64,000 bases of DNA from Flavobacteriaceae bacterium (GTDB lineage Bacteria; Bacteroidota; Bacteroidia; Flavobacteriales; Flavobacteriaceae), in the NCBI GenBank assembly GCA_024644745.1, contig JAHEHF010000009.1:1-64000 (forward strand). Reading direction: 5' to 3'. The notes beneath the pieces were generated by a model that was given only the letters and a program-made list of their open reading frames with translations, ran no database searches and was not told the DNA's origin. A program made the position numbers and the translations under genes. Below, piece by piece: positions 4,102 through 6,505 of the stretch (its first letter is position 1; the number at the start of each line of letters is the position of its first letter).

Positions 4102-5013
4102 ATGAGAATTCTTCGTAAATTTGCAAACTTAAAGATTGAAAACATGTCAGACAGTTCAGTTGTTTTACCGCGAAAGAAAAAACCGGAATGGCTCAGGGTA
4201 AAGTTACCCGTTGGCAAAAAGTATACCGACCTCAGAGGGCTGGTAGACAAATATAAATTAAACACGATTTGTACCAGTGGCAGTTGCCCAAACATGGGAG
4301 AATGCTGGGGAGAAGGAACAGCCACCTTCATGATCCTCGGGAATATCTGCACGCGTTCCTGCGGGTTTTGCGGAGTTAAAACCGGAAAACCGGATCAAGT
4401 TGAATGGGATGAACCCGAAAAAGTAGCCAGATCCATCCATTTAATGAATATAAAACACGCGGTAATCACTTCTGTGGACAGAGATGACCTGAAAGACGGA
4501 GGATCAATTATCTGGGCTGAAACAGTAGAGGCTATCCGGAGAACAAATCCCGAGACGACTCTTGAAACACTCATTCCTGATTTCAGGGGAGATACAAAAA
4601 ATATAGACCGGATCTTGGCCGTCGCCCCTGAAGTAATTTCTCACAATCTGGAAACGGTGAGAAGACTTACTAGAGAAGTGAGAATTCAGGCAAAATACGA
4701 TCGAAGCCTAGAAGTTTTGCGCTATCTTAAAGATTCCGGGCAGCAAAGGACCAAATCAGGAATCATGCTCGGACTTGGAGAAAAAGAGGAAGAAGTTATA
4801 GAAACCCTGGAGGATCTCAACAGGGCAAAAGTAGATATTGTAACCATTGGGCAGTACCTTCAGCCCAGTAAAAAACACCTGCCTGTTCATGAATTTATCA
4901 GACCTGAACAATTTAACAGATACAAGGAGATAGGACTTGAATTGGGTTTCAAATATGTTGAAAGTGGAGCCCTGGTCAGGTCCTCTTATCGTGCTGAAAA
5001 GCATTTGATTTAA
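4102..5013 (+). CDS. lipA: Lipoyl synthase (radical SAM); true start may be the internal ATG at 4144
   Basis: [41 protein letters not shown] (both cysteine clusters) and C-terminal [16 protein letters not shown]. Confidence 0.96.
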
Positions 5014-5083
5014 ATAGTTGAGAATCTTAACATATCATTAACAGCCTGTATCAAATTCTGGTACACATTTTGATAGTAATTGT

Positions 5084-5171
5084 ATGAAGCAGAATTCCCC
5101 AATAATTTTGACTTCATTATGATTAATTTTGAGTTAGTAAGCTTAAAGCACCTCCGTAAAGAGGTGCTTTT
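5084..5171 (+). repeat. Copy 1 of a conserved intergenic block plus terminator-like hairpin; candidate small RNA
   Basis: ATGAAGCAGAATTCCCCAATAATTTTGACTTCATTATGATTAATTTTGAGTTAGTAAGCTT followed by the stem AAAGCACCTC-cgtaaa-GAGGTGCTTT. Confidence 0.7.
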
Positions 5172-5350
5172 AAGTTTCCTGAGGATCCGGTAATCGAAGA
5201 TTTTGAAATTGGCTGTTAGCTTTTTGTAAAATATTCCCATTTTCAAACTCCTGATCCAATTGTATTCTTTATTTTTTAAATAAAATTGCATTTATTAATA
5301 AAATATTAACACAATTATATGATTTTGGCACAAGATTTGCAATTAACAGC

Positions 5351-5436
5351 ATGAAGCAAAGTTCCCCACTAATTTTGTTTTCATTATGATTAATTTTGAG
5401 TTAGTAAGTTAAAAGCACCTTTTTAAGGTGCTTTTT
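5351..5436 (+). repeat. Copy 2 of the conserved intergenic block plus terminator-like hairpin; candidate small RNA
   Basis: ATGAAGCAAAGTTCCCCACTAATTTTGTTTTCATTATGATTAATTTTGAGTTAGTAAGTT followed by AAAAGCACCTT-ttt-AAGGTGCTTTTT. Confidence 0.7.
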
Positions 5437-5593
5437 ACATTTGAAACAATTGCCTCTTTATTTATTCATATATTATAAATCATATCAGTTATGACAAGCA
5501 AAATTATTAGTAAAAAGATTAAAAATTACTGATTAATTAAATTTATACCCAATTAATTTGTGAAATTATTAATAAATCTGTAATTTGCCTTGC

Positions 5594-5678
5594 AAACAAA
5601 ATTAGTCGCAAATTTTGTTTTCATTATGATTAATTTTGAGTTAGTAAGCTAAAGCACTTCTAAACCGGGAGTGCTTTA
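5594..5678 (+). repeat. Copy 3 of the conserved intergenic block plus terminator-like hairpin; candidate small RNA
   Basis: AAACAAAATTAGTCGCAAATTTTGTTTTCATTATGATTAATTTTGAGTTAGTAAGCT followed by AAAGCACTTC-taaaccg-GGAGTGCTTT. Confidence 0.7.
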
Positions 5679-5692
5679 TTACTTTACAGACC

Positions 5693-6505
5693 CTACAAAC
5701 GAGATACAAATTCTTTAACCAGTGTGCTTATTTTTTCTTCTGAGGCTTTTGCGGCTTCCTGAACGGCCTCATGAGATACTTCCTCAATTTTTCCTTCAAT
5801 CCCAAGATCAGTAATCACAGAAAGTCCAAAACATTCCATTCCCATATGCTTTGCCACAATAACTTCAGGAACAGTGCTCATGCCTACTGCATCTGCTCCC
5901 ATAAGTTTCACCATCCTATATTCAGCAGGGGTTTCAAAGGTAGGTCCCTGTAGTGCCAGATATACCCCTTCCTGAATCTTTATATCAGTTTCACGGGCAA
6001 TTGCACGCATCAATTCAATCATTTTCCAGCTGTAAGGCTCATGCATATCGACAAATCTGGGGCCAAACCGCTCTTCATTTTCACCCCTGAGCGGATGTTC
6101 AGGCATCATATTGATATGATCCGTTATGACCATGATGTCACCAACTTCAAATGCCGGATTTACACCGCCACTGGCATTTGAGACCAAAATTTTATCAATA
6201 CCCAGAAATTTCATAATCCTGATGGGAAAGGTCACCTCCTGCATTTCCCATCCTTCATAATAATGGAACCTTCCCTGCATGGCCACAACTGATTTTCCCT
6301 CAAGCGTACCGTAAATAAAGGTTCCCGAATGGCCGGTAACTGTTGAAACGGGAAAATTCGGAATGTCGTGGTATGCAATTTTCTTTTCAATTTCGATCAT
6401 TTTAACGATTCCCCCGAGTCCGGTACCCAAAACAATTCCCAATTCGGGTTTGACAATACCTATATCCCTTAAAAATTTAGTTGTCTCCTTTATTTGTTCG
6501 TACAT
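5693..6505 (-). CDS. punA: Purine-nucleoside phosphorylase
   Basis: 270 aa: GIVLGTGLGG, TVTGHSGTF, QGRFHYYEGW, SNASGGVNP, GPTFETPAEYRM, VGMSTVPEVIVA. Confidence 0.95.
   Translation of the reverse strand: MYEQIKETTKFLRDIGIVKPELGIVLGTGLGGIVKMIEIEKKIAYHDIPNFPVSTVTGHSGTFIYGTLEGKSVVAMQGRFHYYEGWEMQEVTFPIRIMKFLGIDKILVSNASGGVNPAFEVGDIMVITDHINMMPEHPLRGENEERFGPRFVDMHEPYSWKMIELMRAIARETDIKIQEGVYLALQGPTFETPAEYRMVKLMGADAVGMSTVPEVIVAKHMGMECFGLSVITDLGIEGKIEEVSHEAVQEAAKASEEKISTLVKEFVSRL

Follow-up and report, generated by a model that had tools for sequence, protein, structure and literature searches.

A tandem array of three putative small RNA genes with a near-invariant core between lipA and punA in the flavobacterial genus Lutimonas

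The gap between a lipA-like and a punA-like gene in a member of the marine genus Lutimonas (Flavobacteriaceae) holds three related units, spaced by 267 and 240 bp. We consider it fairly probable that these units are three tandem small RNA (sRNA) genes of ~90 nt, two of them induced through sigma-54, whose conserved core would bind a partner, probably an RNA-binding protein. In the window (the whole stretch of 64,000 nt that was analyzed), the array lies between its conserved upstream neighbor, the lipA-like gene (radical SAM, lipoyl synthase; 4102-5013, + strand), and the convergent punA-like gene (PNP_UDP_1; 5693-6505, - strand). A preliminary description of this DNA had reported three copies of a conserved block at these spacings, each followed directly by a hairpin, and both statements were borne out. 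An exact 28-mer, TCATTATGATTAATTTTGAGTTAGTAAG, starts at 5114, 5381 and 5621, i.e. once per unit, and no further site with up to three mismatches was found elsewhere in the 3.14-Mb genome. Copies 1 and 2 do share the additional upstream block reported for them; it spans 99 nt with 82% identity, and within it lie the stem of a 5' hairpin and, ahead of this, a promoter of the sigma-54 type.

All units share the same order of elements: a promoter, a 5' hairpin, a spacer, a 20-nt core that hardly varies (AUUAAUUUUGAGUUAGUAAG) and, last, an intrinsic terminator. The 5' hairpin, which can be formed by all three copies, typically has the form GAAGCAAAATT-CCCCACT-AATTTTGTTTTC, with variants. In copy 1 (all three copies are on the + strand), the hairpin GAAGCAGAATT-CCCCAAT-AATTTTGaCTTC (5086-5115) is helix 1 of the covariation alignment A3 and the RNA is predicted to start at ~5085-5086; the near-invariant core, ATTAATTTTGAGTTAGTAAG, occupies 5122-5141 and is followed by the terminator AAAGCACCTC/GAGGTGCTTT (5142-5174), which is helix 2. 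The hairpin of copy 2, GAAGCAAAGTT-CCCCACT-AATTTTGTTTTC (5353-5382; predicted RNA start ~5352-5353), is supported by both covariation and the predicted fold, and the core (5389-5408) again leads directly into the terminator, AAAAGCACCTT/AAGGTGCTTTT (5409-5437). Copy 3 has a covarying hairpin with the inner stem CAAAATT-AGTCGCA-AATTTTG (5593-5622), a core at 5629-5648 and the terminator AAAGCACTTC/GGAGTGCTTT (5650-5678). The terminators of copies 2 and 3 are assigned from sequence as well as covariation. Four variants in other genomes are devoid of the 5' hairpin; they keep the core and the terminator, with the core, as judged by eye, near the predicted RNA start.

Covariation was assessed over 65 distinct units, mostly from Lutimonas with a few from three other genera (g4, g48 and g182). 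Over the two helices, 95.2% of the cells pair, and both partners have changed in 19 of the 21 pairs. Covariation scores 0.548, whereas shuffles give 0.208 and slid partners no more than 0.129; these figures lean towards the structure because the alignment was fitted to it. In the terminator helix, 98.2% of the cells are paired and every one of the ten pairs has changed on both sides. The compensating stem changes proposed earlier are thereby confirmed, and they extend past the terminator into the 5' hairpin, which the preliminary description had missed. Folding energies are low (z-scores -4.6 to -6.1), the lowest being that of the 92-nt RNA of copy 1 (z = -6.1); copy 3, alone among the copies, has a predicted alternative fold. 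The conserved block is presumably single-stranded. The core region could form a weak hairpin of seven pairs, on which the alignment speaks neither way because the core hardly varies.

A terminator of conserved structure belonging to each unit is a feature of sRNA genes, and the sequence supports the earlier proposal of tandem sRNA units that each end in their own terminator, with transcription predicted. The location directly after lipA, together with the terminator at each end, would also suit units that are mere terminators or part of a lipA 3'UTR, devoid of separate transcripts. This reading is very unlikely, since most units have their own promoter at a conserved spacing, the 5' hairpin covaries, five copies lie at loci with no lipA nearby, and three successive terminators would be needless.

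The promoters, which the preliminary description had also overlooked, fall into two classes. Copies 1 and 2 are preceded by -24/-12 elements of the sigma-54 type: TGGTAC-N5-TTGAT in copy 1 (5059-5074), which a whole-genome pattern search also recovers, and TGGCAC-N5-TTGCA in copy 2 (5326-5341), which agrees with the consensus at all positions. Across units, 37 of 62 have a sigma-54 site that agrees at 8 or more of 10 positions, the GG among them, and starts 21-25 nt before the modeled RNA, where 0.013 would be expected per scan. With a looser cut-off the site is seen in 41 of the 62, copies 1 and 2 included, at a fixed distance to the hairpin. Upstream of the promoter, copy 1 has a direct repeat TTAACA-N5-TTAACA with an 11-bp period (5027-5043), a putative activator or accessory site, and copy 2 has a degenerate form, TTAATA-N5-TTAACA (5295-5311); degenerate repeats of this kind occur in some other sigma-54-type units as well. 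More generally, TAAC-N6..8-TAAC is found upstream in 29 of the 41 sigma-54-type units, and in 27 of them TAAC-N7-TAAC ends 15-17 nt before the TGG (background 0.001 per region). A wider sigma-54 regulon marked by the TTAACA repeat was considered and rejected: the combined repeat and promoter pattern has just 12 matches in eight genomes, and all those that could be placed are sRNA units, a few having been left uninspected. Four Lutimonas genomes each encode a single RpoN, along with three or four strong activators of sigma-54. A -24/-12 element at a fixed spacing from the start, in a genome with RpoN and activators, is found for copies 1 and 2 and not for copy 3, and control of the first two by sigma-54 from the predicted start sites is what we infer.

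The sigma-54 site is absent from copy 3 and its orthologues. Copy 3 has a sigma-A-like element instead, TTTG-N19-GTAATTTG (5557-5587; compare TAnnTTTG), and its orthologues have better TAnnTTyG boxes than copy 3 itself. In the stretch scanned, TAnnTTyG is present in 10 of 21 non-sigma-54 units, some of these matches lying off the expected place. For copy 3 and its orthologues, a sigma-A promoter of the flavobacterial type (TTTG followed by TAnnTTTG; -7 consensus as given in PMC9723704) is the probable, if less secure, assignment.

Homologues in relatives, which the preliminary description had called for, are abundant within the genus. The core is present in 18 of 21 other Lutimonas genomes, including Lutimonas halocynthiae CECT 8444 and L. 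saemankumensis DP2N0-7, and at the same stringency in none of 128 genomes outside Lutimonas. Copy number at lipA-punA varies among relatives, as had been suggested, with up to three units per genome and often three, and several species have extra copies elsewhere. In seven three-unit genomes, units at the same position are more similar across genomes (0.756, 0.796 and 0.727 for the three positions) than units within one genome (0.679); therefore the array is old, with a triplication that predates these species. Several dispersed copies per genome, seen in some species, might suggest a DNA-level repeat or mobile element of the REP or MITE type. We reject this reading as the least probable of all: the genome studied here has just three copies, the array keeps to a single locus throughout the genus with position-specific orthology, and promoters, terminators and covariation in RNA-type stems are found in the units.

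Outside Lutimonas, a match of models R1 and R2 was accepted as a true homologue when it combined a sigma-54 site, the series of 5' hairpin, core-like stretch and terminator, and lipA upstream. Homologues with a sigma-54 site downstream of lipA were found in five other genera (g3, g4, g48, g154 and g182). Those of g4 and g48 lie ~0.4 to 1 kb from lipA, while those of the other genera mostly adjoin it; one of the copies in g182 has no lipA in reach. The core in g3 reads AAGTTTGGTTAGTTAA. Among 30 lipA loci of 27 other genera, a homologue is seen just in g3 and g154, so the distribution is patchy. In three genomes of g162, a genus that by our guess is perhaps Flavobacterium, neither a sigma-54 site nor the core follows lipA. 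Many matches of ~40 bits in other genera were excluded from the family, being either 3'UTR terminators with the GAGTTAGT motif alone or AT-rich chance matches.

The core could encode an eight-residue leader peptide, MINFELVS (ATG ATT AAT TTT GAG TTA GTA AGY TAA), the frame of which is intact in 43 of 62 units. We consider this highly improbable and have discarded it, as the start is lost in 13 and the stop at that place is absent in 14 of the 62 units, third codon positions of the core are invariant in almost every unit, and the frame is not kept in g3, g4, g48 and g154.

A serious alternative, though less probable than a binding partner, is that the units are trans-acting antisense sRNAs of the Qrr/FopS type, in which the core would be a seed pairing near the start codons of mRNAs, and the copies would give dose and separate control. 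Multi-copy sRNAs of Bacteroides act in this way (PMC11697453), and in the present units the core is near-invariant across copies while the flanks drift. Strong duplexes of the core with 355 gene starts number 7, compared with 1.6 for shuffled cores, a count matched in 0 of 60 shuffles; one candidate target is the start of a gene in the window that, judged by eye, encodes a PIG-L-like deacetylase (~52730, - strand; -14.9 kcal/mol). However, the excess is present, if somewhat weaker, on the antisense strand (4), inside genes (4) and at stop codons (5), and therefore is not specific to gene starts. The 17-nt complement of the core, with up to three mismatches, is no more common than a reversed control in four Lutimonas genomes. 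sRNA seeds can be as short as 7-9 nt, below the reach of these target searches. Nor does antisense pairing predict that the core should occur in the same sense in mRNA 3'UTRs, as described below. The small-RNA reading of the preliminary description thus holds for the tandem terminated units, their homologues and the lack of a known family, while its antisense targeting region is so far unsupported.

Part of the core recurs at the 3' ends of mRNAs. Many weaker model matches represent different transcripts, which have in common just TTTTGAGTTAGT directly before a terminator, and the short motif TTGAGTTAGT has the same sense and place in 3'UTRs as in the sRNAs. In g110 and g34, a terminator lies within 75 nt after 14 of 40 TTGAGTTAGT sites, compared with 2 of 40 when read from the other side, and the upstream genes of eight sites encode SusD homologues. 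In these eight SusD-family 3'UTRs, all from g110 and g34, the motif mostly lies just before the intrinsic terminator. A general terminator-associated motif in Lutimonas was ruled out: TTGAGTTAGT precedes none of 35 ordinary Lutimonas terminators sampled. Stretches of one Lutimonas genome totaling 400 kb served as a background sample. The 3'UTR link consequently rests mostly on other genera. Just 10-12 nt of the core recur in 3'UTRs, whereas in Lutimonas the core extends further and is more strictly conserved, a difference that a seed for base pairing might account for as well. We regard the connection between the sRNA family and a wider 3'-end motif as suggestive and unproven.

Other 3' ends carry related elements. 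An element with two motif copies, TTTGAGTTAGTA-TTTTTTGAGTTAGTTAGTT, is conserved across genera and followed in most cases by the terminator ACCGGTGGGAGCACCGGT. At seven or more loci of other genera a DUF4197-type gene ends ~70-110 nt upstream of it (Pfam was tested for one of them, L047); at a further locus, L241, the neighbor differs. In three genera (L227, L229 and L041), AATTATTTTGAGTTAGTCA and then a terminator come after members of a gene family for small exported proteins of ~130 residues. In the genome studied here, gldN is followed directly by a core variant, CTGAGTTAATAAT, and a strong terminator (C117:11050-11143, - strand), and an exact copy of the motif follows an uncharacterized gene.

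We propose that copies 1 and 2 would be switched on, upon stress or a signal of nutrient state, by an enhancer-binding activator that may contact the TTAACA direct repeat; copy 3 would provide a basal supply, so that the array would raise the dose of one common core. With less certainty, the essential part of the core, UUGAGUUAGU, adjoining the terminator, may be the place where a common partner docks; the variants that lack the 5' hairpin and keep the core and terminator fit such a site. Because the motif reads in one and the same sense in the sRNAs and in the mRNAs, a binding partner common to both is the simplest explanation, and a protein is a likelier partner than an RNA because the complement of the core is not enriched. 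Such a hypothetical RNA-binding protein would also bind the same motif in some mRNA 3'UTRs, and the sRNAs might regulate with its help or compete for it with those mRNAs. Bacteroides is described as devoid of Hfq, ProQ and CsrA and as using RRM proteins such as RbpB (PMC12119571, PMC11697453); an RRM-type protein is thus a natural candidate. As a bolder extension, which we think doubtful, UUGAGUUAGU before a terminator could be a shared 3'-end mark of Flavobacteriaceae, read by a putative RNA-binding protein on susD, gldN and other mRNAs, with the sigma-54 sRNAs as induced decoys or co-regulators; nutrient uptake and gliding would then be under a CsrB-like circuit, in a phylum described as devoid of Hfq, ProQ and CsrA. 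Should susD 3'UTRs commonly be marked by the core motif, this would point to a regulon through which marine flavobacteria control glycan uptake post-transcriptionally. sRNA control in Bacteroidota is barely charted beyond the gut genus Bacteroides, and the array offers a compact test case: its locus is defined, its promoters are of two classes, its core is strictly conserved, and strains that carry it are known by name.

The covariance models of Rfam match neither the window nor the homologues of other genera; this includes Flavo-1, singled out in the preliminary description, and the FopS/GibS family (deposited in Rfam according to PMC11697453). The Qrr family gave no match at the gathering score or among the matches up to E = 10. 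In the literature collection searched, no report of a sigma-54-controlled sRNA family in Bacteroidota was found. Rfp18 of Flavobacterium psychrophilum is likewise a conserved sRNA of Flavobacteriaceae; however, by its description, its pairing is predicted in the third stem-loop and it affects metalloprotease mRNAs (PMC9723704). As a working idea, the sRNAs may be likened to the Csr/Rsm sponge RNAs CsrB and RsmZ, in that several RNAs share a motif with mRNAs bound by a protein; the motif is a different one, and the present sRNAs have one site per RNA and a protein that is hypothetical. The Qrr RNAs of Vibrio (PMC8043402, PMC2680268) are likewise paralogous sRNAs, in up to five copies, with sigma-54-dependent promoters, one conserved targeting core and an end terminator, whereas the present units are clustered in tandem, belong to Bacteroidota and include one copy with a promoter of another class. 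FopS/GibS of Bacteroides are multi-copy paralogous sRNAs of the same phylum in which a conserved stretch leads up to an intrinsic terminator, and they are linked to SusC/SusD, but they have sigma-ABfr promoters, a single-stranded seed at the 5' end and no 5' hairpin (PMC11697453), whereas in copies 1 and 2 the promoter is of the sigma-54 type and a 5' hairpin is present. Judged from its sequence, the array represents a real and apparently undescribed sRNA family, distinct from both by the features compared, that would work in a manner similar to Qrr and FopS.
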